20,530 bases of DNA from a virus, in the IMG/VR virus record IMGVR_UViG_3300049489_000122, positions 1 to 20,530 of that record; one strand, written 5' to 3'. A program made the translations under genes and the position numbers. Positions 1 to 18,351 of this stretch are shown here, piece by piece (the stretch's first letter is position 1; each line of letters opens with the position of its first letter). Under the pieces are notes generated by a model. It did no database searches. It was not told the origin of the DNA and saw only the letters and a list, made by a program, of their open reading frames with translations.

Positions 1-165
1 AATTAGAGCTTGCTTCCATGTTTCTTGATCGCCATTGGTAAAGGCTTTGTGAAGTTTCTCAAAGTTTCTTTCGTATTGCTTAACGTGAGTGATTAAGCGC
101 AACAGGTTCTGTAGTCTTTCATCATGGATAGCGATTCCGTTGTATAACATTGACTGTCTGAGCAT
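1..165 (-). CDS. Small leftward protein, C-terminus beyond window edge
   Basis: Unrecognised. An open frame of 55 codons starts at the ATG on complement 165-163 and runs off the left edge without a stop. The start is well supported: a perfect AGGAGG ribosome binding site (complement 176-171) lies five bases upstream. The peptide begins MLRQSMLYNGIAIHDERLQN and continues as a charged, probably helical chain (LLRLITHVKQYERNFEKLHK). No signal peptide, metal site or known motif is visible. It lies 64 bases downstream of the ribbon-helix-helix gene on the same strand, so the two may share a transcript. Function is not inferred. Confidence 0.7.
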   Translation of the reverse strand, partial: MLRQSMLYNGIAIHDERLQNLLRLITHVKQYERNFEKLHKAFTNGDQETWKQALI

Positions 166-170
166 TGTCA

Positions 171-176
171 CCTCCT
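171..176 (-). promoter_or_regulatory. Consensus Shine-Dalgarno of the leftward small gene
   Basis: The complement reads AGGAGG followed by TGACA and the ATG at 165. This is the strongest ribosome binding site in the left region and decides the start of the partial leftward gene. It contrasts with the neighbouring leftward gene at 230-388, which has no such site. Confidence 0.8.
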
Positions 177-229
177 AGTTATAATGACGTTAGTATTATG
201 TTAAACATTTTTAGACAAAAAAATATCTA

Positions 230-388
230 TTAAGTATTCGCGTCTTTTCTTCCGTACTTCTTGCATAACCAATAGATGAAGGCTGAGACATTAGTAAAGC
301 CATTATCCTTAGCCATTTGTTCAACTTCACGTTTCTCGGCCTCAGTTACTCTTAGCGCGATCGTTTTATCTTTGATTTCTTTTTCCAT
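230..388 (-). CDS. Ribbon-helix-helix (Arc/CopG-like) DNA-binding protein
   Basis: A 52-residue protein. After a lysine/glutamate-rich start, residues 8-14 (KTIALRV) form the expected DNA-contacting beta strand. Two helices follow, TEAEKREVEQMAKDNG and NVSAFIYWLCKKYG, separated by the short turn G-F-T-N typical of the ribbon-helix-helix fold. Family members dimerise and bind operator repeats, commonly repressing their own or a divergent promoter. It is transcribed away from the packaging genes, so it may control the divergent region at 389-488 or the leftward operon; this is inference. Its ATG has no recognisable ribosome binding site, and the promoter places the likely transcript start at or next to the ATG. 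Confidence 0.75.
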   Translation of the reverse strand: MEKEIKDKTIALRVTEAEKREVEQMAKDNGFTNVSAFIYWLCKKYGRKDANT

Positions 389-394
389 GTAATA

Positions 395-422
395 ATCATA
401 CCACGTTAATACATTGTGTCAA
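395..422 (-). promoter_or_regulatory. Sigma70-type promoter for the leftward regulator
   Basis: On the minus strand TTGACA (422-417) is followed after 16 bases by TATGAT (400-395). That is a perfect -35 and a five-of-six -10. Only six bases separate the -10 from the ATG at 388, so transcription would begin at or within a base or two of the start codon, giving a leaderless message. The site lies in the 100-base divergent gap (389-488) before the terS-like gene. No convincing plus-strand promoter was found in that gap. Confidence 0.65.
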
Positions 423-488
423 CATTATTTTAGCGACGAGAAATGAAGATTTATTTTTAATTGTTTCCAGAAAGTAACAAATTGCTAT

Positions 489-989
489 ATGTCAATACAT
501 CCAGCATCAAAACAGATCAAAGAGGCTAAATTCATTGAGGCCTTGGTGGATACTGCTGGAAATGCTACAGAGGCCTACAAGGCTATTAAGCCTCAAGTAA
601 CACACCATTCTGCAAGGGCTTTAGGAAGTAAAACATTAGCCACGATTAGCCAAGACGATACAAAAAGTATTATGGAGAGGGTTGGCTGTACTAAGGAAGC
701 GGTTATCAATGGAATCTGGAAACGCATTGAAGGAACAAGGAAGGTAGGCGATTACGTCCGAGGCGCTGATGTTATATGCAAAGTAGGCGGTTATTACGAG
801 TCTAAGAACACTTTGAAGGACGCAATGGACGCAGGCCTTGACCTAGTAGAGATTATCAAGGTACGTTTGCGTAAGTCTAGTGATATCAAGCCATTGCAAC
901 AATCAATAGATATTCCATCTAAGTCAACAGACAACGTAGTTGATGCGGTGATTAGCGACGGTACAGCGACGAGCAAGGCAAAAGAATAA
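489..989 (+). CDS. Probable terminase small subunit (TerS)
   Basis: A 166-residue protein. Residues about 10-50 (KFIEALVDTAGNATEAYKAI, then HSARALGSKTLA) match the N-terminal helix-turn-helix pattern of phage small terminases, in which an N-A-T-x-A-Y helix is followed by an S-A-R-x-x-G-S recognition segment. The middle (residues about 66-115) is helical and could oligomerise; the tail is Ser/Thr-rich and polar. TerS recognises the packaging site on phage DNA and regulates the large terminase. Position supports this: it is the first rightward gene, and TerL follows about 1.4 kb later. The ATG at 489 has no strong ribosome binding site. The call rests on motif resemblance and position; a transcription regulator is the main alternative. 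Confidence 0.65.
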   Translation: MSIHPASKQIKEAKFIEALVDTAGNATEAYKAIKPQVTHHSARALGSKTLATISQDDTKSIMERVGCTKEAVINGIWKRIEGTRKVGDYVRGADVICKVGGYYESKNTLKDAMDAGLDLVEIIKVRLRKSSDIKPLQQSIDIPSKSTDNVVDAVISDGTATSKAKE

Positions 990-2304: not shown

Positions 2305-2367
2305 TGTTATAGCATGGTAGCCCTACAAGCACCTGGTTGCGACACCCCGCACTTTATAAAGGAATTT

Positions 2368-3858
2368 ATGGCAGTTTCCCTAGTCACTAGGCAAGAAAAA
2401 GAGAAGCTCTTAGAACACTATTACCTTAACATCCAAGACTTTGCTTCTGACATCTTGCCTCACTGGCTAACATTTAAGACACCAGAGTTCCACAAAGACA
2501 TCTATGGACTACTCAGAACTGAACCACTGTTGGCATTGTCAGCTCCTAGAGGCTTCGCTAAGTCAACAGTCTGCTCCAAGATATTCCCCATCTGGTCAGC
2601 CCTATTCAGGCAATATGGCGACATATCAATCATCTCAGCTTCCGAGGACTTCGTTGTCCGAGAGATCATGTCCCTGCTTAGAAACGAATTTGAATCAAAT
2701 AAGAAAATCCTCCGATTGTTTGGAGAACAGAAAACAGATCAGTGGTCAGCTTCTTACTTCAAGCTTAAGAACGGAATCGCATTTGAGGGCCTTGGCATTA
2801 ATGGTCAGTTGCGTGGTGGTCGTCGTGGTGTGGTTATCCTTGATGACATTGAATCTAACGAATCAGTTATTTCCGAAGACCAGCGTACAAAGCTTAAAGA
2901 CAAAGTAAACAAAGAGATTATCCCAAAGCTATTGCCAGAGTCAATCTGCTGCATTGTTGGCACAATTATCCATCCACTTTGTTACCTTCGCGAAGTGCTT
3001 AATAACAAAGACAATGGTTGGACAAAGCGAGAGTACAGGGCTTACATAGATGCCAAGTCCTCTGATACGCGCAAGATGCGGCAAGGTAACGAGCTTTGGG
3101 CTGATATGTGGTCCCATGACAAGCTACAGAAAAGAAAAGCTGCAATCGGGTCCACCGCATTTGCAAGTGAATACTTAAACGATCCTATCTCTGATGGTGC
3201 TATGCCGATCAATGAAGAACATATCCGGTATTGGGATTCATTACCAGAACAGTACTCGGTCTATATGTGCCTTGATCCGGCCTACACAGAGAACGAGACA
3301 TCTGATTACAAGGTAGCTGTAGCGGTTGCAATAGACTCAAAAGGAAACAGATACCTACTTGAATACATACGAACACACGCTCCGTTGGGCGAGTACATGG
3401 AAGGGGCGCTAAACCTATATGTTAAGTATAAAAATAAGTGCATCAAACTTGGATGTCCAGCCGGACGAGAATCAGACTTTTATAACAGCTTTGAAGAACG
3501 AGCCAGAAAACGCAACTTGTACCCGCCTATCTGCGAGGTTAAGTACGTTATCCGAGACGCTCAAACAGGTGCCAGTCTCAGAAATAAGCATCAGCGGATT
3601 GTGCGAACTCTACAACCACATTTCGAGAATGGAACATATTATATTCACCCAACACAGACCGAAGCCAGGGCAGAGTTATTAAGCTTTGCGGGACAGTCAC
3701 TACACGACGATATCGTAGATGCCATGTCTGGTGTTGAGCAGTTAGTTGAACCGCATTACTCCTACGAAGAAGTAGAAAAACAAGCACAGGATTCAACCTG
3801 GACTATTGAAACAGTAGACTTATCCTCGACCGGAGAGAATGGTTACGGGGATTACTAA
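2368..3858 (+). CDS. terL: Terminase large subunit (TerL), packaging ATPase-nuclease
   Basis: Packages DNA into the prohead. From the ATG at 2368 the protein has 496 residues. Walker A is SAPRGFAKST (about 58-67) and Walker B VVILDDIE (about 155-162, the final Glu being the likely catalytic carboxylate). The RNase H-like nuclease shows MCLDPAY near residue 302 and HDDIVDAM near residue 446, supplying metal-binding aspartates. Size and motif spacing fit complete TerL proteins. I chose 2368 because AAAGGA lies five bases upstream; an in-frame ATG at 2314, ten bases after the tRNA, would add 18 residues but lacks a ribosome binding site. The portal gene follows after 18 bases. Confidence 0.93.
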   Translation: MAVSLVTRQEKEKLLEHYYLNIQDFASDILPHWLTFKTPEFHKDIYGLLRTEPLLALSAPRGFAKSTVCSKIFPIWSALFRQYGDISIISASEDFVVREIMSLLRNEFESNKKILRLFGEQKTDQWSASYFKLKNGIAFEGLGINGQLRGGRRGVVILDDIESNESVISEDQRTKLKDKVNKEIIPKLLPESICCIVGTIIHPLCYLREVLNNKDNGWTKREYRAYIDAKSSDTRKMRQGNELWADMWSHDKLQKRKAAIGSTAFASEYLNDPISDGAMPINEEHIRYWDSLPEQYSVYMCLDPAYTENETSDYKVAVAVAIDSKGNRYLLEYIRTHAPLGEYMEGALNLYVKYKNKCIKLGCPAGRESDFYNSFEERARKRNLYPPICEVKYVIRDAQTGASLRNKHQRIVRTLQPHFENGTYYIHPTQTEARAELLSFAGQSLHDDIVDAMSGVEQLVEPHYSYEEVEKQAQDSTWTIETVDLSSTGENGYGDY

Positions 3859-3876
3859 CAGACCAAACGGACACAA

Positions 3877-6033
3877 ATGGCAACGAAATTCCTAACAGAT
3901 AACGGTTACAACAAGCTTAATCCAGCTACTTCTAGCGGTTTACGCAATGATTCAGCCAATGATTACAACAAGTACTTAGAAGATGAGAAGATCATCACTA
4001 AGTACAAAGTAGCCGTCAACATGGCTTTAACTGATACCTCCACATGGCGCAATAAGCAAGACGCATGGAATAAGCAGCGCATGAGGATTAAGAAGGCCAA
4101 GGTGTTCCCGTTTGAGGGATGCTCCAACCTTAAGATGCCAACCGATGAAAGACATATCGGTAAGAAGAAAGCTAAGTTAGCTAACCGTATCTTTGGTATC
4201 AGACCGATCGTGCAAGCCGTTCCACCACCGTCAGGTAAGATGGCGGTGGCCCAGAAGATAGAGAAGTTCCTAGACCACCTTTTGATGGATGTTATGAACA
4301 TCTATCCTAAGGGTGTTATCGCTATAGACAAGATGTTAGAGTCTGGCTTTAACACAATGAAAGCTTACTGGCGCATCGAGAAGACCCGACGCACAGAAAC
4401 TTTTGGTCTAGCGGACATGTCAGTAGAAGAAGCTGCAATGATGTTCTCTCACGGTACCGATCCAGATTGGATCAAAGAGGAGATCATTAAGCGCTTAGAT
4501 ATCGACATGAATCCGTTGGTTTCTGACGAGAACGAGAAGCAGATAGAAGAAGCCATCGTAAAGATTTACCAAGGCGCAGAGGAAGTAACCATTGATGTTG
4601 ACGACCTTACATATAACGCTCCTGACGTTGCCACACCCGATGCGGTACGTATCATTGTTCCCTCGGAATCGCCTCTCGACCCACAGAACTGTGAATGGAT
4701 ATGCCACGACCTTGTTATCAGCTATCGTGAATTTATGTCGAGGGCAGAACGTGGTTATAAGAACATTGACACCGTTAGCTCAACAGTCACAAGAGCAACT
4801 GATCCAAATTTTACTATTGAACAGTCAAAAGACTTTCGTGAGGGGATCAATCGTTATCAGAATGGTGGCTATGTCCGAATCTGGGAGATTTATACCTGGG
4901 AAAAAGTAACCCCCGAAGACCCCGCACCACGCAAGTGTGTTATTACTATTGCCCCAGAGTTTAATGTTGTCTTGCGCCGCATGTCTTTGGCTAACCTTAA
5001 TGGCAAGTTCCCATTCGCCCGTATCAATAGAGAGATCATTGACGACAGATGGTACAGCCCAAGGGGTATTCCAGAGTTAATTACAGACATTGTGCGTGAG
5101 ATTGATGTGCAGAAGAATCAGCGCATTGATTCACAGACAGCCCGTAATGCTCCGATGTTTATGTACCGCGTCGGGATAGTGAATCCGAATATTAAGCTTA
5201 AGCCCAACAAGGGGATTCCCGTTCCTCCTGGTATGCCATTTGGTGAAGCTTTCCACATGATGAACAATACCAACCTTAATGCTGAATTTAGCTATAAGGA
5301 TGAGTTGCAGCAGCTTAATGCAGAGACGGAAGAATTACTTGGTGAGGTTAACTTTACTCTCCAATCACAGATCAATAAGCGTCAACCCCGCACCGGAATA
5401 GAAGTAGATGCACAAGTTCAGAACATGATGCCAAGCACGAATCTTGAAGGTGAGATCGTGGCTAATGGTTTCAATGAACTGTTCAATATGATCTTCGCCT
5501 TGTGGTGTGAGTTTGGTGATGATGAGTATGAGTTCCAGTACTTCGGCAACAACGCTGATGGTAAATTTGAGACTATTAAGTTGACCAAGGAAGAACTACA
5601 GGGTCATATCATCTCGGTTCGCGGCAATGATAGCAACACCAATCCCGCTGTCCGTATGCAGAAAGCAATGACCATTAAGCAGATCACATCTGATCAGTTG
5701 GCATTGAATATGGGATTAACTTCACCCATGAATGTGTATAACGCTCAAAGGGAAGTGCTGCAACAGTTGGGTGTAAATCCTGATATGTTTGTCAGTCCTC
5801 CACCCCCGCCTCCACCAGAACGCCCAGCTCCCATTAAGATAGGGATGGAAGACCTAACGGCCAAGGAGGCAATGCAAGTAAAGATGGCCCAAGGTATTCG
5901 TCCTGATGTGCTAGGAAACCTTGAACGTGATGCGCAGATGGCATCTAAGCACAGAGCAGAAACAGCCCACATCAATGCTAAAACAATGAAGGAAAATATC
6001 AGTGAACAAATCCCAGAAGCAATTACTCAGTGA
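3877..6033 (+). CDS. Portal protein
   Basis: A 718-residue protein placed directly after TerL. It forms the dodecameric channel through which DNA enters and leaves the capsid and which carries the neck. Length and position fit portals of short-tailed phages. Recognisable stretches include a conserved N-terminal region (VFPFEGCSNLKMP), the wing/stem region with WYSPRGIPELITDI near residues 390-405, and the helical IDVQKNQRIDSQTARNAP. Near residue 640 seven consecutive prolines precede a charged helical tail (about 660-718) that could sit inside the capsid. The ATG at 3877 has only a weak ribosome binding site. The end overlaps the next gene by 32 bases. Confidence 0.88.
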   Translation: MATKFLTDNGYNKLNPATSSGLRNDSANDYNKYLEDEKIITKYKVAVNMALTDTSTWRNKQDAWNKQRMRIKKAKVFPFEGCSNLKMPTDERHIGKKKAKLANRIFGIRPIVQAVPPPSGKMAVAQKIEKFLDHLLMDVMNIYPKGVIAIDKMLESGFNTMKAYWRIEKTRRTETFGLADMSVEEAAMMFSHGTDPDWIKEEIIKRLDIDMNPLVSDENEKQIEEAIVKIYQGAEEVTIDVDDLTYNAPDVATPDAVRIIVPSESPLDPQNCEWICHDLVISYREFMSRAERGYKNIDTVSSTVTRATDPNFTIEQSKDFREGINRYQNGGYVRIWEIYTWEKVTPEDPAPRKCVITIAPEFNVVLRRMSLANLNGKFPFARINREIIDDRWYSPRGIPELITDIVREIDVQKNQRIDSQTARNAPMFMYRVGIVNPNIKLKPNKGIPVPPGMPFGEAFHMMNNTNLNAEFSYKDELQQLNAETEELLGEVNFTLQSQINKRQPRTGIEVDAQVQNMMPSTNLEGEIVANGFNELFNMIFALWCEFGDDEYEFQYFGNNADGKFETIKLTKEELQGHIISVRGNDSNTNPAVRMQKAMTIKQITSDQLALNMGLTSPMNVYNAQREVLQQLGVNPDMFVSPPPPPPPERPAPIKIGMEDLTAKEAMQVKMAQGIRPDVLGNLERDAQMASKHRAETAHINAKTMKENISEQIPEAITQ

Positions 6034-6334
6034 CATCTCGGTAGTTCTACAGCTTAAAGAACATGCCGGTTGGGAAATAGTAATGAGGGATGCGCAGGCA
6101 AACTTCGATGCGTTATCAGCATCGTGGTTTAACCTTCCAGAAGATTCACCATTGTTAAAAGAGCAAAGAGCAAGGCAGATAGCAAACTATACCATCCTAA
6201 CACTCATGGACATGTACGAAGCAAAGTACAGGGAGTTGGGGATGGAACTTATACAAAACGAAAACACTGACATCTTGCAATCCAGCGACATTGATCGCAT
6301 TGATGTAATGGAAGAACCAGAAGACAATGAGTAA
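6002..6334 (+). CDS. Small hypothetical protein following the portal
   Basis: Unrecognised, 110 residues, starting with GTG inside the end of the portal gene and itself overlapping the next gene by eight bases. It is predicted largely helical (QLKEHAGWEIVMRDAQANFD, then RARQIANYTILTLMDMYEAK) with an acidic tail ending EEPEDNE. A short helical gene in this place is common in podovirus head modules, where its product is thought to be a virion or assembly factor. Coupled translation with portal and hydrolase suggests a late role. No enzymatic motif is visible. Confidence 0.7.
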   Translation: MNKSQKQLLSDISVVLQLKEHAGWEIVMRDAQANFDALSASWFNLPEDSPLLKEQRARQIANYTILTLMDMYEAKYRELGMELIQNENTDILQSSDIDRIDVMEEPEDNE

Positions 6335-7103
6335 AACAGACCAGACACCAGCACAATTACAAGCAGCAGCAATGGCAGCTAAAGAGGGAAATGCGACACC
6401 TTCCGTCTATAAGCTCTCCGCTGCACCAGCACAGGTTCCTGAGTTTCAATATACTCGACCATCTAGGATCGTTGCTAGTAACGCTGATGATAACAAGGTT
6501 CTAGCTACAGCACAGATGCTTTATGGTGAGTTTGGTGGTGAAGGTAAGAATCCAGAACTCCAAAAACAATACATGAAGACGGGTGCTTCTGCCGCGTACA
6601 ACACATTCGGTAAGGGTGAATGGGCTGGCCGTGATTGGGACACTCACTTATACAAGAACTTCTACGCTGTCCAGAATCATAATCAGCCATATCAAGAAGC
6701 CTTAAATGGTGACTTCAAGACACCAGAATCACAAGCCTCCTGGAAACGTGCCATGCAGATCGCTTATGGTATAGAGTCTGGGAATATACCGGTTGAGAAG
6801 GGTCAGTTCTACTTCACACCAGAGGAACGTCAGAAGAACTTTGGCGGACCAAGCATCCCTAATCCAGATAAGTTAGAGCTGGTACGTAATGTTGGTAAGT
6901 ATGAAGTCTATCAATATAAGCAGAATAAACCAGTCGCTAAGATTCAAGAAGCCCTTAAGACTTCTGGTTTCTATAAAGGTGAAGTGGATGGCATGACGGG
7001 TCCACAAACCAAAGCTGCTATCAAACAGTTTCAAGTTGCTAATGGCTTAAAGCCAGACGGCATTGTAGGTAAACAAACAAGGGCTGCATTGTTCAGCTCG
7101 TAA
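6327..7103 (+). CDS. SleB-like cell-wall hydrolase with peptidoglycan-binding domain
   Basis: A 258-residue protein with two parts. Residues about 58-165 resemble SleB-type hydrolases: LATAQMLYGEFGGEG (candidate catalytic Glu 68), then YAVQNHNQPYQEA and WKRAMQIAYGIESG, ending in a KGQFYFTP segment. SleB enzymes cleave the glycan strand of peptidoglycan. Residues about 202-256 are a peptidoglycan_binding_1 domain (IQEALKTSGFYKGEVDGMTG, later PDGIVGKQTRAAL). There is no signal peptide or membrane segment, so release would need a holin or virion delivery. Its place between portal and scaffold genes points to a virion-borne wall-degrading enzyme used at entry, although a lysis endolysin is possible. 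The catalytic assignment is by pattern only. Confidence 0.75.
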   Translation: MSKTDQTPAQLQAAAMAAKEGNATPSVYKLSAAPAQVPEFQYTRPSRIVASNADDNKVLATAQMLYGEFGGEGKNPELQKQYMKTGASAAYNTFGKGEWAGRDWDTHLYKNFYAVQNHNQPYQEALNGDFKTPESQASWKRAMQIAYGIESGNIPVEKGQFYFTPEERQKNFGGPSIPNPDKLELVRNVGKYEVYQYKQNKPVAKIQEALKTSGFYKGEVDGMTGPQTKAAIKQFQVANGLKPDGIVGKQTRAALFSS

Positions 7104-7132: not shown

Positions 7133-7954
7133 ATGGAATATCAAACACCGACTGATGACGTAATCATCAATGACTCGACTAGCGACGTTATCGCGAATGA
7201 CGCAAATGAATCAGGCGCCTCATCCCCGTCAGCACAAGCGGATGTAAACACTGAGGTAGATGAAACGGGTGTCTCTTATAAGAACCGGTTCTTGGAAGTT
7301 AACAGGAAACTAGAGAACCTGAATAAGTCAATCCCTCAGATGATTCAGGAAGCGGCACAGTTGGCAGCACAGAACACACAGGCACAGGTCAGCAAGAAGG
7401 AAGAATATAGTCTTAACGACTATCTTACCGCTAAAGCTAGAGACCCTCAGAACGCAGCTTACTACGATGGCAAGATTCTTGACCTCCAAAAGCAAGAGAT
7501 CGCAAGCACAGTACAGACGCAACTGACACAGTACCAGCTAAAGCAACAGCACGATGCCGCAAGGCAACAAGCTGAAGCATGGGCGGTAAATAACTTCCCA
7601 CAACTTAATGACCCAAATTCTCCTTATGCACAACAGGTCTGGGCTACGTTTAACTCAAGACCCGCAGATAAGAGAGAGCCGTATGATTTTGCTGTTGCTG
7701 CTGAATTAGTGGCGGCACGTATGGGGATCAAAGCAGCATCCGCCAGCAATCCGGCACAGGAAGCATTACAACGCAAAGAACGTGAACTAAAGAAATTAAC
7801 TAAGGAGCGTGTTGTTGAAGGTGATGGGAGAGGCCGAACAATAGCCCCAACATCAACACAGAGGCAGGCGGATTTGACCGCTGCGCTCGATCGTGGAAAT
7901 GTTAAAGGTTACATTGAGAAGTATCTTCTAAAGCCTAAGGCAGCCGAAGAATAA
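7133..7954 (+). CDS. Capsid scaffolding protein
   Basis: A 273-residue protein immediately before the capsid gene. The N-terminal 45 residues are acidic and low-complexity. Residues about 47-80 (RFLEVNRKLENLNKSIPQMI) form a likely coiled coil. The middle is rich in Gln and Ala, and a basic helix (LQRKERELKKLTKERVVEG) lies near 209-228. This composition and order is typical of scaffolds, which direct capsid shell assembly and then leave. The ATG at 7133 follows AAGGAA. Only three bases separate its stop from the capsid ATG. No protease motif is seen. Confidence 0.75.
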   Translation: MEYQTPTDDVIINDSTSDVIANDANESGASSPSAQADVNTEVDETGVSYKNRFLEVNRKLENLNKSIPQMIQEAAQLAAQNTQAQVSKKEEYSLNDYLTAKARDPQNAAYYDGKILDLQKQEIASTVQTQLTQYQLKQQHDAARQQAEAWAVNNFPQLNDPNSPYAQQVWATFNSRPADKREPYDFAVAAELVAARMGIKAASASNPAQEALQRKERELKKLTKERVVEGDGRGRTIAPTSTQRQADLTAALDRGNVKGYIEKYLLKPKAAEE

Positions 7955-7957
7955 TAA

Positions 7958-9060
7958 ATGGTAGATAATCCCGCAGGTTATTCGTTAAACACCGTCTAGC
8001 GAATATAAAATCTTACTATATCGGTGGATATCCAGCAATGGACAATACCGAGGCAACCTGAGAAGTTCAGAGAGTCCGTAGAGACTACACGTAAGACACC
8101 GCAAGGTGATGATATAGTCCGAACTACATAGAGATATGTAGAGATTGACAGAAATGCTCAATCCTCGTCTTTAAAACGAGTAACAATATTGATGACAATA
8201 AAGCAATTCGTGAAGATTTGCTTAATTTGATTACGAATGTTTCGCCGTTAGAAAACCAGTTGGTCTATGGTTTGCAGCAATCAACATCCCTTCAACCCAT
8301 CCATCAGTGGCTTACGGACTCTTTAAAGACCCCCGCCGCTAATGCGAAGGTCGAAGGTGCAGATGCTTCATTCGCAGCCCGCACCAACCCTGCCCGCGAC
8401 ATTAACTATTGCCAGATCGTTTCCATCCCAGTGATGGTTACTGGTTCTGATGATATGGCTAATGCTGCTGGTTATGGTGGTAGCCGTATGGCCTATGAAA
8501 TGGAAAAGGCCATCAAGGAATACGCTAACGATACCGAGTTTGCTCTTATGCGCGGTACGTTGGTTTGTGGCGCTGGTACCACAGCCCGTAGCCTCAAGGG
8601 TGTCAAGGCCTTTGCTTCTACGCTTGCAACCAGCCAATCTGGTATCTCTTTGAGCGAGTCTATTATGATCGATCACTTGGATGCTGGTTGGACCAATGGT
8701 GTTGTCCACAAGGAAATCTATGTTGGCCGTGTGCTGAAAAAGAGAATCAACTCTTTCACCGCGAACAGCACCTTGTTCCAGAACCCAACAGATAAACGAT
8801 TGGTTAACTCCGTCGATATCTACGAATCAACCAATGGTCCTGTGAAAATTATGCGCCATCGTTATGTCACTGTTGCTGGTGATGTTAATAACGATTTGGT
8901 CACGATCGCTCCGGATCACTTAGCAGTTGCCTACTTCCGCAAGCCTACAGTTCAGGATATTGCGAAGACGGGTGATGCTGAGAAGAAGCAGTTACTTGGT
9001 GAGAAGACCCTCGAAGTCCGCACCGAGAAAGCTGTTGGTTTGATCAGTGCGTTGCTGTAA
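7958..9060 (+). CDS. Major capsid protein (SU10/DUF5309-like), interrupted by an intron
   Basis: Builds the capsid shell. Exon 1 is 7958-7985 and exon 2 most likely 8192-9060; joined they give 897 bases, 298 residues. Spliced, the start reads MVDNPAGYSYDNKAIREDLL and then LITNVSP, matching the Y-D...R-E-D-L...I-T-N-I-S-P start usual in this family. Further family-like stretches are WLTDSLKTPAANAKVEG, VMVTGSDDMANAAG and an E-x-E-K-A-x-K-E-Y segment. Without splicing exon 1 stops at TAG 7997-7999 after 13 codons, and exon 2 has no ATG or ribosome binding site near its start; the TTG at 8218 is an unlikely start. The spliced product length fits the family. Confidence 0.85.
7986..8191 (+). ncRNA. 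ORF-less group I intron in the capsid gene
   Basis: The elements of a group I ribozyme are visible. P1 pairs 7979-7987 with 7997-8005, with the U7985-G7999 wobble marking the 5' splice site. P2 is ATATC/GATAT (8018-8022/8027-8031). P3 pairs 8038-8043 with 8074-8079. P6 is CTGA/TCAG (8058-8061/8067-8070). P7 is GACTA (8083-8087) with TAGTC (8115-8119), the latter within the conserved GATGATATAGTCC. P8 is CACC-GCAA-GGTG (8097-8108). P9 is CTACATA-GAGA-TATGTAG (8124-8141). A later hairpin CTCGT/ACGAG (8165-8169/8176-8180) lies before the 3' end. Ending at G8191 restores the reading frame and a family-like protein; G8203 is the nearest alternative. No homing endonuclease is encoded. Confidence 0.88.
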
Positions 9061-9143: not shown

Positions 9144-9473
9144 ATGGAACTAGCCCACACCACAGATGTCAATGTTGCCGTAAGAGCCTACATCAATACC
9201 ATCCTTAAGCATGACCAAAGAGCATGGCAAGAGATGCAGGATTTTATGGACCAGAAGAAGGACATGATCGCCTCACAGAAAAATGAGCGTGGCATGTCAG
9301 ACGGCGAAGAACTTAAGCACTGTATCTCAATGCCTGAATTATTAGGTGCGTATGTGTTCAAGCAATTCCCAGAGATATTAGATTCCAAGAACTCGATGTA
9401 TCGTTTCATGCGAGCTTTCCCAGAGTTTACCGCATCACATAAGCCTTTCAAGACCAAGTACGAAGCTCGTTAA
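9144..9473 (+). CDS. Hypothetical protein after the capsid gene
   Basis: Unrecognised, 109 residues, predicted helical and charged throughout (HDQRAWQEMQDFMDQKKDMI). A compact C-terminal part carries ISMPELLGAYVFKQFPEILD and FMRAFPEFTASHKPFKTKYE. No signal peptide, membrane segment or metal motif is seen. It sits between the post-capsid hairpin and the glycosyltransferase cassette, 12 bases before the first glycosyltransferase. It may be a minor head protein by position, but nothing in the sequence confirms this. Confidence 0.65.
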   Translation: MELAHTTDVNVAVRAYINTILKHDQRAWQEMQDFMDQKKDMIASQKNERGMSDGEELKHCISMPELLGAYVFKQFPEILDSKNSMYRFMRAFPEFTASHKPFKTKYEAR

Positions 9474-9485
9474 CAAAAGGGGTAT

Positions 9486-11846
9486 ATGAAGAAAACCATT
9501 GGATTATGTTTAATTGTCAAAGATGAAGTAAAAGATGTTGTCCGTATTTTATCTCATTACGGGAAACTATTTGATTGTGTTTACTTGACCGTTACGAACA
9601 AATCCAAATTGGAAGAATTTCAGACCCTACCAAAGCTGATGGATGATGTTAGAATCCTCGTCAGCTACTTCGAGTGGACCAAGAACTTTTCAGAAGCTCG
9701 CAACTTCAACTTCGCACAAGCTGAAACAGATTATATCTTCTGGATGGATGCGGATGATAAACTCCATAATGCCTCCGCAATGCGTGGCTTAATCACCAGG
9801 CACGAAGATGTAGATGTATTTTATTTCAATTACCAATACGCTTTTGATGAGTCTGGTAATTGCACCATGCAGCACACAAGGGAAAGGCTCATCCGCAACA
9901 ATAAAACATTGATGTGGAAAGGAGCCGTACATGAAACCCTTATTCCTATTGAAGACGTACAGTTACGTTCTGGCCAATCTGATGAAGTCCAGGTTATCCA
10001 CACCGCTACGCTTGAAGATTGCGTTGACTCTCATAAAAGAAATGTGGAGATACTGGTATCAGAATACAATCGCGAGGGCGAGAAGACTGACCCTAGAAGT
10101 TTATCTTATCTTGCAGCAGAGCTTACAGCGCTTAAAAGGTATGATGAGGCTATAAAGTTTTACGAGAAGCATATCCAGTTAAGCGGTTGGGAAGAAGACA
10201 AGTATCTTAGCTGGAACAAGATCGCACAGAACCTAGTCAGCATGTTCATGGAGCATGGTGATAAGAAGCTATTAGCTACCGCAATCGCAGCGTTATCCGA
10301 AGCGATTATTATGTTCCCGCAGTTCCCTGATGCTTACCTGACAATGGGTGAAGTCTATTGGCACTTAAGAGAATGGGAGAAAGCGATTGAGTGGACGAAT
10401 ACTGGTTTATCGAAAAAGCCTGACACAACATTACCTTATCACGATCCCACACGCTACACCATACGTCCTTTACCTATTCTGGCCTTTGCTCACCTTAATC
10501 TCGGAAATATCGAACTCGCGTATCAGTTGATGTCCGAGGCCATGAAACGTGCGCCTAAGAACCCGTTTGTGGTTAATAACTTTCCGTTCTTTGAGAAGTC
10601 TCAGAAAGAGCTGCTGGTATTTAAGAACTTCATCAATATAGCCGCATACCTTGAAAACAACGATAGAGACAAGTTAAACAAGCTCCCCGATCTTATCCCA
10701 AATGATTGTGCTGGTGATGATCGCTTTATCCAGTTAAGGCATAAGTATTCTAAGCCTAAGGTATGGGATGCAGACTCGGTTGTGATCTATTGCGGTTTAT
10801 CAGCAGAGGAATGGGCGCCACCTAGCGTTTTAAAGGGCATAGGAGGCTCTGAGGAGGCCGTAATCTACTTATCCAAGGAACTAACCGCCTTGGGCCATAA
10901 AGTCACCGTATATGCCAACTGTGGCGATTTAGAGGGTGATTACGATGGTGTGGAGTACAAGAATTACTGGCACTTCAATAAGCACGATGTCTTTAATGTC
11001 ATCATCTCCTGGCGTCAGAATATCTTTAATGCTGGTGTTTTTGGTAAGCGTAAACTTGTATGGCTACATGATGTGCCATTCAAGAACGATTGGACCGCAG
11101 AAGCTTTTGAGAATGTGGACAAGGTTATTGTGCTTTCAGATTATCACAAGACCCTTTTACCTAATGCGCCGGAAGATAAAATCTACGTTTCCACAAATGG
11201 GATAAATGTACCAGACATGGTACTAGCTGATTCCAAGAAGCATACACGCAATCCATATCGCATCATTTATGGCTCAAGCTACAACCGTGGCCTTGAACAC
11301 TTGCTAGATATGTGGTCTGAGATAAGACAAGAAGTTCCCATGGCAGAACTCCACGTATTTTATGGGTGGGAAACTTTTGATGCCATGAACTCTGAAAACC
11401 AAGACCTTATGCGCTGGAAGGAATCTTTGATTAAGAAGATGAACCAACCAGGTATTAAGGATCACGGCCGGGTTGGCCACAGAAAATTGCTTGAAGAATA
11501 TGCGAAGTCAGCGATCTGGGCTTACCCAACATTCTTTAAAGAGATTAACTGTATAACGGCGCTGAAAGCAACTGCAATGGGTTGTATGCCGGTATTCCAT
11601 AACCAATTTGCATTACGCGATACTTGTAAATATGGTTACGGTGTGGAACCTAAGGAGGAGAAGTTAATGCTTGAGGAGTTTAAGCAGAAACTAATCACCG
11701 CCCTACATGTTCCATACGGAAAAGAACCCAGAGAATCTATGAAGATCGCGGTAAGGAATCAATACTCCTGGGTGAATGTCGCAAGGGATTGGAGTGCAAA
11801 TCTATTTAATGAAAATCTCGATCTTTGCGTCAGCGATAAGAACTAA
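9486..11846 (+). CDS. Fused glycosyltransferase: GT2 domain, TPR-like helices, GT4-like domain
   Basis: A 786-residue protein that should transfer sugars from nucleotide donors. Residues about 1-185 are a GT2-type GT-A domain: TIGLCLIVKDE, then WTKNFSEARNF and MDADD with D88, D90 and D91 as the metal/nucleotide site. The WTxxFSxARN spacing matches bacterial GT2 enzymes that carry TPRs. Residues about 195-360 are helical TPR-like repeats (RYDEAIKFYEKHIQL, EWEKAIEWTNTGL). Residues about 428-770 form a GT-B domain of GT4 type: KGIGGSEEAVIYLSKEL, then VIVLSDYHKTLL and the late EINCITALKATAMGCMPV, where the family's donor-binding glutamates would sit. AAAAGGGG precedes the ATG. The 3' end overlaps the next glycosyltransferase by 38 bases. 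Two catalytic domains in one chain suggest two successive transfers; acceptor unknown. Confidence 0.85.
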   Translation: MKKTIGLCLIVKDEVKDVVRILSHYGKLFDCVYLTVTNKSKLEEFQTLPKLMDDVRILVSYFEWTKNFSEARNFNFAQAETDYIFWMDADDKLHNASAMRGLITRHEDVDVFYFNYQYAFDESGNCTMQHTRERLIRNNKTLMWKGAVHETLIPIEDVQLRSGQSDEVQVIHTATLEDCVDSHKRNVEILVSEYNREGEKTDPRSLSYLAAELTALKRYDEAIKFYEKHIQLSGWEEDKYLSWNKIAQNLVSMFMEHGDKKLLATAIAALSEAIIMFPQFPDAYLTMGEVYWHLREWEKAIEWTNTGLSKKPDTTLPYHDPTRYTIRPLPILAFAHLNLGNIELAYQLMSEAMKRAPKNPFVVNNFPFFEKSQKELLVFKNFINIAAYLENNDRDKLNKLPDLIPNDCAGDDRFIQLRHKYSKPKVWDADSVVIYCGLSAEEWAPPSVLKGIGGSEEAVIYLSKELTALGHKVTVYANCGDLEGDYDGVEYKNYWHFNKHDVFNVIISWRQNIFNAGVFGKRKLVWLHDVPFKNDWTAEAFENVDKVIVLSDYHKTLLPNAPEDKIYVSTNGINVPDMVLADSKKHTRNPYRIIYGSSYNRGLEHLLDMWSEIRQEVPMAELHVFYGWETFDAMNSENQDLMRWKESLIKKMNQPGIKDHGRVGHRKLLEEYAKSAIWAYPTFFKEINCITALKATAMGCMPVFHNQFALRDTCKYGYGVEPKEEKLMLEEFKQKLITALHVPYGKEPRESMKIAVRNQYSWVNVARDWSANLFNENLDLCVSDKN

Positions 11847-12564
11847 ATTCTGGCCAGAACAGCTAGAGTCACTTGAGAAGAATAAAGTGGATTGGGAGTT
11901 AGTCTACGTAGGCTCTAAACAGCCAGACTTTCATCACCCAAATCTTAAATGGTACTTTTCCGAAGTTAAACCGGCCCAATGTTGTGAGGCGGCACGAAGG
12001 AATTGTACCGGAGATATTCTCTCATGGACAGCAGACGATGCAATATATCCGGCAGGCATATTGGATGACATTGCTAATCTGTTTACCTCTTATCCTGACG
12101 AGAAATTAATCATAGCAGCAGAAACAATAGAGAATGAAAGGCCCTGTCCCTGGGAGTCTTTCCTATTGTTTGATAATAACCCACTCTCACCAATCATGGC
12201 ACCATTCGGATTTATCCGTAAGGCATGGTTCGATAAATTGGGTGGGTTCGATAAACGCTACATCGGTGGTCAGTACGAGAACGATCTATTACTTAGACAC
12301 TACGCTGCTGGTGGTCAGATCATGGGATATGATGATAAACCAATTATCGTAGACCATTACAACAAGCACACCAATCATCACTCGGACTTTAGTAACTTCT
12401 ATAAGCATGGACGCAAGGTCTTAGAAGATACCTGGCGTTTAGGTGGTTATCAAGAACACTCCGCAGATGGTCAAGTCCTACACACACCAGCCATAGAGTT
12501 CCAACCTTACAGTGATAAGGAAATCCTAACAAAGACTCAAGGACCACAAGGCCTATGGGAGTAG
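11809..12564 (+). CDS. GT2-like glycosyltransferase
   Basis: A 251-residue protein from the ATG at 11809, chosen because a GGAG lies upstream and the protein then begins MKISIFASAIR; an in-frame ATG at 11776 would add 11 residues deeper inside the preceding gene. The GT-A fold is suggested by the N-terminal strand, CCEAARRNCTGDILSWTADD (putative A-D-D metal site), and FIRKAWFDKLGGFDKRYIGG, a typical acceptor-side segment followed by YENDLLLRHYAAG. The pattern fits GT2-type sugar transferases, with no membrane segment. It lies between two other glycosyltransferases, sharing 38 bases with the first and 10 with the third, so all three are likely made together. Confidence 0.75.
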   Translation: MKISIFASAIRTKFWPEQLESLEKNKVDWELVYVGSKQPDFHHPNLKWYFSEVKPAQCCEAARRNCTGDILSWTADDAIYPAGILDDIANLFTSYPDEKLIIAAETIENERPCPWESFLLFDNNPLSPIMAPFGFIRKAWFDKLGGFDKRYIGGQYENDLLLRHYAAGGQIMGYDDKPIIVDHYNKHTNHHSDFSNFYKHGRKVLEDTWRLGGYQEHSADGQVLHTPAIEFQPYSDKEILTKTQGPQGLWE

Positions 12565-13232
12565 ATGTCAGTATTGTATTACCAACACTGATCCGTAATA
12601 CAGAACAATTCAACACAACCATCAAGTGCATCGAACTAGCCCGCAAACACACCAATGTTCCATTTGAATTAATCATCGTAGAAACTGAGACTAATTACCT
12701 TGAAGAACTTGCCGACGTTTACATTCACTTCCCAACAAAAACGTGTAGCACTAAAGACATTAATGCTGGCTTTGCTGCTGCCACCGGCACTTATGTTGGG
12801 TTGCTTACTAACGATGTATATGTTGATGAAGGATGGCTTGAGGTTCTGTTGGAGACGTTTGACAGGAAAAAGGACTGTGGTATTGCCACACTCGCTTCTA
12901 CGCAATTCAAAGAACACAGGCAAGTTGGTAAAATTGAGCAGTGGGTATGGTGTTCGGTATTTATTACTCGCAGGGATTATTTAGTAAAACATAATTACTT
13001 CGACGCTGAGAATTTTCCTCAAGTATGGGATGACAGCGACTACGTTACAAAGCTTTGCCTTGATGGATTGCTACCGTATAAGAATTACGGATGCGTTGTT
13101 CATCACAAGATTGGAATGACAGAGTACAAATCACCGCAACACGAATACAACTACCGCACCAACGGTCAACGCTACAACGAGAAGTACAAAGATTGCAAGC
13201 ATCCAATATACGAACACCTGAGGCTTAAATGA
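12555..13232 (+). CDS. GT2-family glycosyltransferase
   Basis: A 225-residue GT-A type transferase. The N-terminus VSIVLPTLIRN is the usual nucleotide-binding strand. The family's N-x-G sits in DINAGFAAATGTYVGLLTND, where T-N-D replaces the more common D-x-D. A later FITRRDYLVKHNYFDAEN and WDDSDYVTKLCLDG match the catalytic end of GT2 enzymes, with D-D-S-D as the likely base region. The chain is short and has no membrane anchor, as in soluble transferases. The ATG at 12555 overlaps the preceding gene by ten bases and the stop overlaps the neck adaptor start as ATGA. That coupling to a virion gene shows it is expressed late. Confidence 0.8.
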   Translation: MGVDVSIVLPTLIRNTEQFNTTIKCIELARKHTNVPFELIIVETETNYLEELADVYIHFPTKTCSTKDINAGFAAATGTYVGLLTNDVYVDEGWLEVLLETFDRKKDCGIATLASTQFKEHRQVGKIEQWVWCSVFITRRDYLVKHNYFDAENFPQVWDDSDYVTKLCLDGLLPYKNYGCVVHHKIGMTEYKSPQHEYNYRTNGQRYNEKYKDCKHPIYEHLRLK

Positions 13233-14172: not shown

Positions 14173-15693
14173 ATGGAATACACCGCAACCGCTGATGATC
14201 AACCATTAGTTAAGGTAGTCAGAAACCTTTCTGGTGGTATGAACTCTAGGGATCATGGGTCAAACATAGGTGAGACACAAGCTACCCTGCTTTATAACAT
14301 AGATATCGGTACACCTGGTCAGACAACAAAGAGACCTGGACTAACGCTTATAGAGGACCTTGGAAGCTCCGCTGGTCTAGCTCTGTATGGATTTGAGCCT
14401 CAGGGTGGAACAAATGCCCTGATTGGTATGTACTCAACCAATCTTGTTACATGGCCAGGCACCGGAACATTTACCAATCGCAAGTCTAACTTTACCGCCA
14501 CTACGCGTCCTTGTGTATTTAGAGCAAGGGAATCTAGCAATGGTGATGTGGTTATGGTTGGTAATGGAACCGATAACTGGTTTCGTATGAAGCAAGATTA
14601 TTCCTTTGCTGACTTGGGTAACACCAATACCTCGCCACCGATCTCCAATGTTGGAACATTCTATCGCTCACGCATGTGGGTATTAAGGAACGAGAAGTTA
14701 TATTGGTCAGACGCTGTATCTAGTGACTACTCCGCAGGCTTTGATAGGACATCAAATAACTTCAACATGCCGGTAGGAGCAGAACAGGCTATTGTTGGGT
14801 TACGCGATCTTGGTTTGATTTGCTTCGGGTTAAAGGGTATCTACGCTATTAACCCATCCGCCACACCAGCCGCTACAGACAAGACCGAAGTGCTGTATGA
14901 CAAGGGCTGTATGGCTGGTAATACAGTGGCACAGGTGGGGGATGATATCTACTTCCTAGCACCCGATGGCGTTAGGTCATTGGTTCGTACACAGCAAGAT
15001 AAAGTGCAGTTGGGGGCATCATTTCCTGTCAGCTATCCACTTAAGGATGAGTTTGAGTCTATCTCTTGGTCCTATATTGACAAGGCTTGCGCTACTTATT
15101 TCGATAACAAATACTTCATCTCGCTTCCAACCTCTGCTTCTACCTACAACAACCAAGTATGGGTCTACTGGCCCGCTACTAATTCTTGGGCTGTGATTAC
15201 TGGATGGAATGTTTCTGCATGGGCCAAGCTTAAGATTAATGGTCAAGAGCGTTTGTATGCTTTTGATTCCAATGACGGAAGTGTGTACAGGGCATGGTAC
15301 GGTTACAGCGATAATGGCACAGCTATTAACTATCAAGAAGAAGGACGTAAAGAAGATATGGGGCAGCCGCTTCTACAGAAGTTTGGTGGCTACTTCAAAG
15401 TTAAAGCGTTCTCGTCTGGTGCCTATACACTTACAATTTCAGCGTCTATTGACGACCAAGACTACACCACACTTGGAACAATGTCCTTAGCTGGTAACGC
15501 ACCCGCTTTGCCTATAGCCCTACCATTCACATTGGCTGGTACGAATATTTTAACCTCAACATTCCCACTCGATTCATTGGGGGAGTGGAATCAGATACGA
15601 TTTAAGATTCAACACAACGCTACAAACGGTTCAGATGAGATCAAGTTGCTTGAAAGGAGTCTCTACACCTATGCCGGAGAATACAATCCCTGA
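14173..15693 (+). CDS. Tail nozzle/stopper-like beta-propeller protein
   Basis: A 506-residue beta-rich protein. The start (VRNLSGGMNSRDHGSNIGET, then TTKRPGLTLIE) is a signature of podovirus tail proteins that sit below the adaptor. Repeated blade-like segments follow, for example YRSRMWVLRNEKLYWSD, GLRDLGLICFGLKGIYAIN and DDIYFLAPDGVRSLVR. The C-terminal third (about 390-500) is a separate beta domain. In related phages this part closes the tail channel and carries fibres. No enzyme motif is visible. It is the largest tail gene in the window, directly between the adaptor and the fibre block. Family naming is by resemblance. Confidence 0.7.
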   Translation: MEYTATADDQPLVKVVRNLSGGMNSRDHGSNIGETQATLLYNIDIGTPGQTTKRPGLTLIEDLGSSAGLALYGFEPQGGTNALIGMYSTNLVTWPGTGTFTNRKSNFTATTRPCVFRARESSNGDVVMVGNGTDNWFRMKQDYSFADLGNTNTSPPISNVGTFYRSRMWVLRNEKLYWSDAVSSDYSAGFDRTSNNFNMPVGAEQAIVGLRDLGLICFGLKGIYAINPSATPAATDKTEVLYDKGCMAGNTVAQVGDDIYFLAPDGVRSLVRTQQDKVQLGASFPVSYPLKDEFESISWSYIDKACATYFDNKYFISLPTSASTYNNQVWVYWPATNSWAVITGWNVSAWAKLKINGQERLYAFDSNDGSVYRAWYGYSDNGTAINYQEEGRKEDMGQPLLQKFGGYFKVKAFSSGAYTLTISASIDDQDYTTLGTMSLAGNAPALPIALPFTLAGTNILTSTFPLDSLGEWNQIRFKIQHNATNGSDEIKLLERSLYTYAGEYNP

Positions 15694-16045: not shown

Positions 16046-17002
16046 ATGTCAACCTTGACACGCGGTATTTCGCTAGGCGCTACAGAAACGGTTACAAATA
16101 CAAAGTTACAGAACCTTGTTGATCTTGGTAGCTGCACAGGAATTGTTGATGCTGACGTTTCTAACGCGGCAGCAATCGGATATAGCAAGTTAAATCTCTC
16201 TGGTGGCATCACAAACAGCGATATTAATGCAAGCGCTGCAATAACCTATAGCAAGCTTAACCTGGGAACATCCATAGTCAATGCTGATGTATCTGCTTCT
16301 GCTGCGATTGTGGCATCAAAGCTTGATCTAACATCACCAGGGGCTATTGGCACCACTGCACCCGCCGCTGGTAAGTTTACAACGCTTGAGGGAACCACAA
16401 CACTAAAGCTTGGCACCACTAATCAGGGCGATATTCTTTACGACAATGGAACATCTTTAACCAGATTGGTTCCTGGAACATCTGGTCAGTTCCTTAAGAC
16501 TCTTGGCGCTAGTGCTAATCCGTTATGGGCTGATGCTTCCTCGGCTTCTAATGTTGTATATAGCTGGTCTGGGTGTACTGACTACGTTGCGGGTGATGCT
16601 TTTGTTGGGTCGGTTTCAGGCACTTCACTTACTCCCACCACTGGAAATACATACTCATTCTTTATCAACAAAAATGCTTCTATTGGGGATCAGACATCAA
16701 GGATTTTGAGATCAAAATTCAAAAAGACAGCAGGTATATCCAATCTAACCATATACGCAAATATTTGGATTAATAATTCTACAGCAAGCGGTGAAAAGGT
16801 TTCAGCGGAATTGAAGGTTAATACGCTGACAATTAATACTTCCGATGTGACTTCAATTACACCAACATGGGCAAATTCTTCCACGCTGGATGTTTCGAGC
16901 CTAACGAATGGTAATGTCTACGACCTTTCAATATCTTTATACACAAATGGTCCAGTTACAATGTACGCATACTTGGGATCAGTAATAGTCTTCGGAAGTT
17001 AA
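16046..17002 (+). CDS. Tail fibre protein with SKL repeats (first copy)
   Basis: A 318-residue protein with typical fibre composition: Ser, Thr, Ala and Asn rich, few Cys. Residues about 30-95 hold three imperfect repeats of about 20 residues ending in SKLNL or SKLDL (AAIGYSKLNLSGG, AAITYSKLNLGTS, AAIVASKLDLTSP), the kind that builds a trimeric shaft. A G-TSL linker (about 130-150) leads to a C-terminal beta domain (about 172-318) that is the likely receptor-binding head. The N-terminus (LGATETVTNTKLQNLV) matches the next gene, so the two share an attachment part. Start at ATG 16046, just after the preceding stop. Confidence 0.75.
   Translation: MSTLTRGISLGATETVTNTKLQNLVDLGSCTGIVDADVSNAAAIGYSKLNLSGGITNSDINASAAITYSKLNLGTSIVNADVSASAAIVASKLDLTSPGAIGTTAPAAGKFTTLEGTTTLKLGTTNQGDILYDNGTSLTRLVPGTSGQFLKTLGASANPLWADASSASNVVYSWSGCTDYVAGDAFVGSVSGTSLTPTTGNTYSFFINKNASIGDQTSRILRSKFKKTAGISNLTIYANIWINNSTASGEKVSAELKVNTLTINTSDVTSITPTWANSSTLDVSSLTNGNVYDLSISLYTNGPVTMYAYLGSVIVFGS
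16245..16260 (+). repeat. 16-base exact repeat, copy in first fibre gene
   Basis: CCTATAGCAAGCTTAA occurs here and again at 17163-17178 in the next fibre gene, both in frame coding YSKLN. The surrounding bases diverge. It marks homologous shaft repeats and could serve as a recombination joint between the genes. Confidence 0.8.
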
Positions 17003-17023
17003 ATCCAAGCTTAAAGGAAATAA

Positions 17024-17620
17024 ATGTCAGCAACCCTCGTAAATGGCCTAGGAACAATAGGCGCAACAGAACAGATCACAGCTACTAAGCTGATGAACTT
17101 GGTTAATAACGCTACGATTAGCGGGATATCTAATGCTGAGATAGCTTCTGATGCGGCGGTAGCCTATAGCAAGCTTAATCTCGCAACAAGCATAGTTAAT
17201 GCGGATATTGCAACTGACGCTGCTATAGCCCTATCCAAGCTCGCCGTAACCACATTAGCCACTGGAAATGCTATTAACATTGTCCTGGATGGCGGTGGAT
17301 CAGCCCTAACAACTGGTGTTAAGTTAGATGTCTTGGTGCCATTTGCTTGCACCATTACCCAGGCTACGGTGCTTGCTGATCAATCAGGTTCCATCGTTAT
17401 AGATATTTGGAAAGATACCTATGCGAATTACCCACCAACGGTAGCCGATACCATTACGGCTTCCGCCAAGCCAACCCTTTCCTCTGCTATCAAAGCGCAA
17501 GACTCTACGCTAACAGGATGGACCACATCTATAGCCGCTGGTGATACCTTGCGCATCAATATTGATTCCATCACTACATGCACACGCGTGACTCTATCTC
17601 TTAAGGTTACAAGGACATAA
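17024..17620 (+). CDS. Tail fibre protein, paralogue of the preceding gene
   Basis: A 198-residue protein. Its N-terminus (GTIGATEQITATKLMNLV) aligns with the first fibre protein's (LGATETVTNTKLQNLV), and it has SKL shaft repeats (AAVAYSKLNLATSIVNADI, AAIALSKLAV), but one fewer. The C-terminal domain (about 85-198) is unrelated: VPFACTITQATVLADQSGSI, then IVIDIWKDTYANYPPT, an all-beta pattern seen in phage fibre tips. So the pair shares a base and shaft and carries different tips. Its stop TAA shares its last A with the ATG of the LamG protein, suggesting coupled expression and perhaps a shared fibre complex. Confidence 0.75.
   Translation: MSATLVNGLGTIGATEQITATKLMNLVNNATISGISNAEIASDAAVAYSKLNLATSIVNADIATDAAIALSKLAVTTLATGNAINIVLDGGGSALTTGVKLDVLVPFACTITQATVLADQSGSIVIDIWKDTYANYPPTVADTITASAKPTLSSAIKAQDSTLTGWTTSIAAGDTLRINIDSITTCTRVTLSLKVTRT
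17163..17178 (+). repeat. 16-base exact repeat, copy in second fibre gene
   Basis: Identical to 16245-16260 in the first fibre gene, in the same codon phase. Confidence 0.8.
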
Positions 17621-18351
17621 TGCCAGGCATAGACTCCTATACGAAGTTAATGCTTCATATGAACGGCACAGACGCATCGACTACGTTCACAGATAGTTCT
17701 CTAAGCCCAAAGACAGTTACGGCTAATGGAAATGCACAAATAGACACCGCACAAAGTAAGTTTGGTGGGGCGTCTGGGCTTTTTGATGGAACTGGTGATT
17801 ATCTAAGCACGCCTAATAGCGCAGACTTCGATTTCGGAAGTGGAGATTTTACAATAGATTTCTGGATGCGCATTTCATCCAATCCAACGGATTATGTAAG
17901 TTTTCTCAATCGTAGGGTGGATGATAACAACCAGATTAGATTCTTGTGGTTTGGAAATGATGTTTCTGGTGGCGGAAGGCTATTCTTTAGAGTTCTTGAT
18001 GGTGGGGTCACAACAACCGCATCAACATCGGGGTATAATTTTATACCATCACATGATGCGTGGCACCATATAGCTGTGGTAAGAACCGGAAACACCATCA
18101 AATTTTTTGTAGATGGCACACAATTTGCGGTTGATTATACGTTCAATATAACCATTCCATCCCTGAACGCAACAACACTAATATCAGTAGATACTAATGG
18201 TGGAACATCGCAATACTATCTCAATGGATGGCTAGATGAATACAGGGTATCTAAGGGAATAGCAAGATGGACCTCAGATTTTACTCCCCCAACAGAAGAA
18301 TACGCTGAAACACCAACCGCAACAGGTAGATCGCAAGTCATTTTCATGTAA
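17620..18351 (+). CDS. LamG/concanavalin-like fibre or adhesin protein
   Basis: A 243-residue protein consisting essentially of one laminin-G-like beta-sandwich. Signatures are KLMLHMNGTDASTTFTDSS near the start, the GGASGLFDGTGDYL turn, SGDFTIDFWMRI, then DAWHHIAVVRTGNTIKFFVD and LNGWLDEYRVSKGIARW. Such domains bind carbohydrates and are common on phage fibres and bacterial adhesins. No signal peptide. Residues after about 225 form a short Thr-rich tail. The start overlaps the preceding fibre stop by one base. The likely job is recognition of a host-surface glycan, by family and context. Confidence 0.8.
   Translation: MPGIDSYTKLMLHMNGTDASTTFTDSSLSPKTVTANGNAQIDTAQSKFGGASGLFDGTGDYLSTPNSADFDFGSGDFTIDFWMRISSNPTDYVSFLNRRVDDNNQIRFLWFGNDVSGGGRLFFRVLDGGVTTTASTSGYNFIPSHDAWHHIAVVRTGNTIKFFVDGTQFAVDYTFNITIPSLNATTLISVDTNGGTSQYYLNGWLDEYRVSKGIARWTSDFTPPTEEYAETPTATGRSQVIFM

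Follow-up and report, generated by a model that had tools for sequence, protein, structure and literature searches.

A cassette of three overlapping glycosyltransferase (GT) genes in an environmental podovirus probably encodes a late, cytosolic protein O-glycosylation system that decorates a virion protein. The cassette lies in IMG/VR record IMGVR_UViG_3300049489_000122, a viral fragment analysed over its whole 20,530 nucleotides (nt; "the window"); the early genes of the phage fall outside it. The three genes, designated GT1, GT2b and GT3, are located between those for an SU10-type major capsid protein (MCP) and an SU10-type neck adaptor. GT1 resembles enzymes that glycosylate proteins directly and is kept beside the capsid gene in many relatives, which makes it probable that the glycan is placed on the phage's own particle.

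An earlier note on this DNA had described three overlapping GTs between head and neck genes, the last coupled to the neck adaptor. Coordinates, strand and the Pfam families of the flanking genes agree with that description, as do the overlaps: 38 nt between GT1 and GT2b, 10 nt between GT2b and GT3, and 4 nt between GT3 and the adaptor gene (an ATGA junction). The start of GT2b was taken as the ATG at 11809; if translation began at the in-frame ATG at 11776, the overlap would be 71 nt. Upstream of GT1, across a 12-nt gap, is a small helical open reading frame (ORF; 9144-9473, + strand) with no PHROG match. The identification of all three as GTs also held up. GT1 and GT3 match Pfam families above cut-offs (GT3 matches PF00535 at 39.8 bits against a cut-off of 23.3 and is a family 2 enzyme), while the middle gene is a putative GT-A glycosyltransferase that carries an ADD (DxD-like) motif and can be aligned by hhalign with its neighbour's GT-A profile at a probability of 99.7 over 200 columns. 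Searches of Pfam, PHROGs, NCBIfam and phage records gave no match for GT2b, no relatives were found for it in viral contigs, and pairwise BLASTP against GT3 gave no match. A single-sequence AlphaFold2 model of GT2b was unusable (predicted local distance difference test score [pLDDT] of 37) and was set aside.

GT1 is a fusion of a GT family 2 (GT2) domain, a tetratricopeptide repeat (TPR) region and a GT family 4 (GT4) domain, with all Pfam matches above cut-offs (PF13439 at 30.5 bits against 28.5). Its AlphaFold2 model, made from an alignment of 51 homologues from the window and viral loci, has a mean pLDDT of 94.1. In a profile search of the PDB, the matches that were not confined to TPRs were led by GmaR (1e-17; residues 2-193) and SunS (1.8e-17; residues 1-234), with ThuS also present, and a phmmer search with the first 191 residues returned GmaR and SunS as its only matches. 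When the model was compared with known structures by Foldseek, the top ranks were taken by SunS, SPINDLY (SPY), ThuS and OGT, all of them protein or peptide glycosyltransferases with TPR or helical parts. The GT2 domain is followed directly by the TPRs, as in GmaR-like GT2-TPR proteins, to whose characterised members GT1 is related. At 24.6 bits against the SunS equivalog TIGR04195 (cut-off 350), GT1 falls far outside that family. Its GT-B domain, compared as residues 428-780, fits GT4-type structures at Z scores of about 30 (MshA, 29.7; PimA, 29.1) and is of CAZy family GT4 by both fold and Pfam match. Among 52 GT1 homologues, residues D88, D90 and D91 (DxD-type) and H149-E150 of the GT2 domain are invariant, as are G454-S455-E456, H528-D529 and R601 of the GT-B domain. 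Judged by sequence and model, the N-terminal half of GT1 groups with enzymes that glycosylate proteins directly. The earlier note had listed the capsid, the fibres and a host surface glycan as candidate acceptors; this grouping favours a virion protein and makes the host surface glycan less likely.

The arrangement is not due to chance, since dozens of diverged phages have GT1 in the equivalent position. The search of IMG/VR found 135 GT1 relatives, of which 80 were fetched; ORFs at the loci were called mechanically, and the counts below contain some duplicate contigs. More than 100 IMG/VR loci carry GT1, usually right after the MCP gene or after MCP and a small ORF, and the spacing 5' of GT1 is mostly a slight overlap or a few bases. 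GT1 is on the MCP strand in all 65 loci that have both genes and follows MCP in 55 of them, in 30 with exactly the order MCP-small ORF-GT1; in the other 10 it precedes both portal and MCP, typically as the gene directly 3' of TerL. Full-length relatives with 32% identity are present in the phage records MW202524, MW202718 and MW202743 (42,585 bases each, with identical match scores), whose gene order, MCP-small ORF-GT1-GT-GT followed further on by the stabilisation protein, is that of the window. The genes after GT1, of which 116 were scanned, encode GTs, methyltransferases and a few cytidylyltransferases. Loci L021 and L182 are minimal versions with GT1 and no other cassette gene. Two complete relatives, MW202718 and MW202497, have their GT genes on one strand with the structural genes and most replication and recombination genes on the other. 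These data support the view of the earlier note that the cassette is expressed late with virion genes rather than early, as indicated by the gene overlaps, the conserved synteny and the strand of the GT genes.

GT1 is co-inherited with the capsid. Over 46 phages, the correlation of MCP distances with GT1 distances is 0.82, a value that none of 5000 permutations reached; for MCP and portal it is 0.62. Mapped onto a 101-row capsid tree, with a sample that includes GT1-anchored loci and several long branches, the presence of GT1 requires 6 changes versus 33.8 when shuffled. Capsid-anchored scans used narrower MCP alignments, since divergent ones gave no searchable patterns. Among loci with at least 4 kb downstream of MCP, GT1 was found in 18 of 28 that have the small ORF and in 1 of 48 that lack it, which is not an unbiased frequency because the queries were taken from phages that have GT1 and a number of contigs were retrieved in duplicate. 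The small ORF was considered as a GT partner and rejected: it adjoins MCP even where GT1 is absent or elsewhere, and thus is a head gene.

The bacterial relatives (the 80 best loci, L261-L340, mostly Bacillota) match only the GT2-TPR half of GT1. Both halves were present in 0 of 99 bacterial GT2-TPR ORFs, compared with 107 viral loci. A collagen-like Gly-X-Y gene occupies 31 of the 156 slots (20%) that adjoin a bacterial GT2-TPR gene and at most 5% of slots further out, and the families most often encoded nearby include Pfam Collagen and BclA_C. In these collagen-like neighbours, Thr accounts for 84% of Y positions. Glycosylation of Thr in BclA-type collagen-like repeats is established, and together with the neighbouring genes it favours the view that the N-terminal half was ancestrally a protein O-glycosyltransferase. 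Gly-X-Thr collagen-like proteins are likely O-glycosylation targets of the bacterial relatives, suggesting that the bacterial GT2-TPR genes may be dedicated O-glycosyltransferases of collagen-like surface proteins. Gly-X-Y ORFs occur in only 15 viral loci and not in the window; a collagen-like protein is therefore not the general acceptor in phages.

From these relationships, we infer the activity of the cassette, the order of its steps, its acceptor and its sugar as follows. The GT2-TPR half of GT1 would most likely transfer a first sugar directly from a nucleotide sugar to a phage structural protein, at Ser or Thr rather than Cys, while the TPR region holds this substrate. The C-terminal GT4-type GT-B domain would attach the next sugar, and the glycan would be lengthened or branched by GT2b and GT3. 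The acceptor would most likely be a virion protein encoded in the same operon, such as the capsid, the adaptor or a fibre. MCP is a candidate because it is co-inherited and in the same operon, and the adaptor is a candidate because its gene is coupled to GT3 and no other stretch encoded in the window is as rich in Ser/Thr as one in this protein (42% over 60 amino acids [aa] from residue 109).

Several observations weigh against this mechanism. (i) The GT-B domain has an EX7K motif (E686 and K694, K being the family consensus) instead of the canonical GT4 EX7E. (ii) Some bacterial relatives sit within general GT/methyltransferase clusters. (iii) The Ser/Thr content of MCP shows no difference between phages with and without GT1, and that of the adaptor differs only slightly. 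(iv) Some close capsid relatives lack the cassette: L171 has the order MCP-small ORF-adaptor, and L084, L085 and L087 have MCP and the small ORF followed further on by the stabilisation protein. These empty sites make the cassette accessory.

There are three other possibilities for the function of the cassette. The strongest, although unlikely, is that late in infection the enzymes alter a glycan or glycoprotein on the surface of the host, for example flagellin or another receptor, blocking superinfection or the re-adsorption of progeny to debris. The action of GmaR on flagellin, the collagen-like surface proteins adjoining bacterial relatives and a variable cassette make-up, as in a host-adaptation locus, would fit this. 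However, GT1, GT2b and GT3 have no strong transmembrane segment, and the proteins scanned included no recognisable flippase, ligase or lipid-carrier enzyme. Conversion of O-antigen or wall glycan is thus disfavoured; the late operon site and co-inheritance with the capsid also indicate a virion substrate. It is rather improbable that the cassette is a moron making a small glycoconjugate or a capsule-like polymer unrelated to the particle: relatives do hold methyltransferases, cytidylyltransferases and a record-annotated 'has synthase', but a fixed position and MCP co-inheritance across large divergence are atypical for a moron, and the minimal versions consist of GT1 alone. Glycosylation of phage DNA, as by T-even glucosyltransferases or hypermodification pathways, is very improbable, even though phage GTs are often assigned to DNA and a 'DNA alpha-GT' of cyanophage S-TIM5 appears at rank 43 of the structural matches, because the relatives of the N-terminal half act on proteins, the GTs are on the structural strand apart from replication genes, and no thymidylate-synthase-like protein, hydroxymethylase or other base-modification enzyme was present among the 31 ORFs scanned of MW202718; the window, a fragment, does not show its own early genes.

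Decoration of a virion protein, which we prefer, can be extended to a more tentative proposal, for which the odds fall somewhat short of even: capsid glycosylation may be lineage-wide in a large group of uncultured SU10-type phages, with a GT2-TPR-GT4 protein O-glycosyltransferase of two active sites, inherited together with the MCP, building a core glycan on head or neck, and swappable GTs and methyltransferases varying the outer sugars in a serotype-like manner. Phage particles are rarely regarded as glycoproteins, and phage GTs are routinely ascribed to modification of DNA or the host surface. If true, virion glycosylation would be a core trait of a widespread environmental phage lineage, conferred by a vertically inherited, capsid-linked enzyme. 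GT1 offers a defined enzyme on which this can be tested, and its likely substrates are encoded alongside.

The features of the window are listed in Table 1. The MCP, portal and adaptor families are all of SU10 type and above Pfam cut-offs, which identifies an SU10-type podovirus head module. The portal gene is followed by two small ORFs, one with a peptidoglycan-binding domain, and then by the scaffold-like ORF; tail and fibre candidates lie downstream of the head-closure gene on the + strand. In a scan of the window for promoters and terminators, sites were no commoner than in shuffled sequence.

Table 1. Features of the 20,530-nt window and domains of GT1 (positions in nt unless marked aa).
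Feature	Position	Strand	Basis
TerL	2314-3858	+	
Portal, SU10_portal PF23899	3877-6033	+	Pfam, above cut-off
Scaffold-like ORF	7133-7954	+	
Proposed MCP 5' exon (MVDNPAGYS + T)	7958-7985	+	Spliced product compared with L004
ORF-less group I intron of the MCP gene, 206 nt	7986-8191	+	RF00028, 55.9 bits, E 5.7e-12; exact ends inferred
MCP 3' exon	8192-9060	+	PF17236, 2.9e-61
SU10-type MCP Pfam match, SU10_MCP PF17236	8218-9060	+	Pfam, E 2.9e-61
GT1, 786 aa	9486-11846	+	Pfam PF00535, TPR, PF13439
GT1, GT2 (GT-A) domain	aa ~1-190		PF00535
GT1, TPR/helical region	aa ~176-400		Pfam TPR from residue 204
GT1, GT4-type GT-B domain	aa ~428-778		PF13439
GT2b, 251 aa, putative GT-A glycosyltransferase	11809-12564	+	hhalign
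GT3, 225 aa, GT2-family (GT-A) glycosyltransferase	12555-13232	+	PF00535
SU10-type neck adaptor, SU10_adaptor PF24175	13229-14158	+	Pfam, 1.2e-9
Head-closure/stabilisation-like protein	14173-15693	+	

The group I intron splits the capsid gene near its 5' end. Splicing at the U of the U-G pair and after the terminal G would give MVDNPAGYSYDNKAIREDLL..., in agreement with the L004 N-terminus TYDNKAIRE, and an MCP of about 298 aa. Split capsid ORFs are also present in L015, L011, L028, L036, L049 and L172. L015 has a group I intron match (5468-5785; 70.9 bits), and most of the other five have an ORF of 155-186 aa between the capsid pieces and no Rfam match at the gathering threshold.

Other genes of the window and its relatives were also recorded. 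The peptidoglycan-binding domain protein (6327-7103) lies between the portal and scaffold genes, an unusual site for a cell-wall binder. Two tandem, related fibre-like proteins (16046-17620) have repeated YSKLNL..SIVNADI motifs and are followed by a laminin-G/concanavalin-like protein (17620-18351). Upstream of TerL, a short formyltransferase (PF00551; 1230-1817) resembles both fmt and amino-sugar N-formyltransferases; an amino sugar in the glycan could be its substrate. Beside the terminase gene is a tRNA with a CAT anticodon (2230-2305), whose anticodon stem lacks the initiator GGG/CCC pairs. In L002, L053, L057, L058, L060 and L062, phages with GT1 between TerL and portal, a GroEL-sized ORF (~520-570 aa) lies between GT1 and the next GT; it is annotated groeL in L002, and three of the ORFs scanned are Cpn60. 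MW202718 has adjacent genes for nicotinate phosphoribosyltransferase and phosphoribosyl pyrophosphate (PRPP) synthetase (L341:13430-15609), suggesting phage NAD salvage.

Among known systems, GmaR, the N-acetylglucosamine transferase of Listeria flagellin, shares with GT1 a GT2 domain with W..DFS.ARN and DxD regions followed by TPRs, and transfers sugar directly to protein. Its GT domain glycosylates flagellin and its TPRs are proposed to bind the substrate (PMC9638930). The C-terminus of GmaR is an antirepressor, whereas that of GT1 is a further glycosyltransferase domain (GT4, GT-B). The glycocin S-glycosyltransferases SunS and ThuS are the best structural match, with a GT2 and a helical domain in common with GT1 and a peptide as acceptor; SunS is prophage-encoded. 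Unlike them, GT1 has the added GT4 domain, and no bacteriocin peptide gene was recognised nearby. OGT and SPINDLY also combine TPRs with a GT-B domain that acts on proteins, but in the order TPR then GT41 GT-B, whereas GT1 has GT-A, TPR and a GT4-like GT-B. According to two reports (PMC11256854 and PMC12363180, citing Freeman et al. 2023), the mycobacteriophages Che8, Corndog and Myrna encode GTs that add glycans to their capsid and tail proteins. The GTs of the F1 phage Maravista lie near the genome 3' end, whereas those of the window are in the head operon. The window also belongs to another capsid lineage, and tblastn of GT1 against phage records at 1e-5 gave no Mycobacterium phage match. 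Our search of open-access literature, with subscription journals outside it, turned up no account of a GT2-TPR-GT4 fusion associated with SU10-type capsids. Thus, virion glycosylation by phage enzymes is already known, and what appears to be new is the GT2-TPR-GT4 fusion linked to SU10-type capsids.

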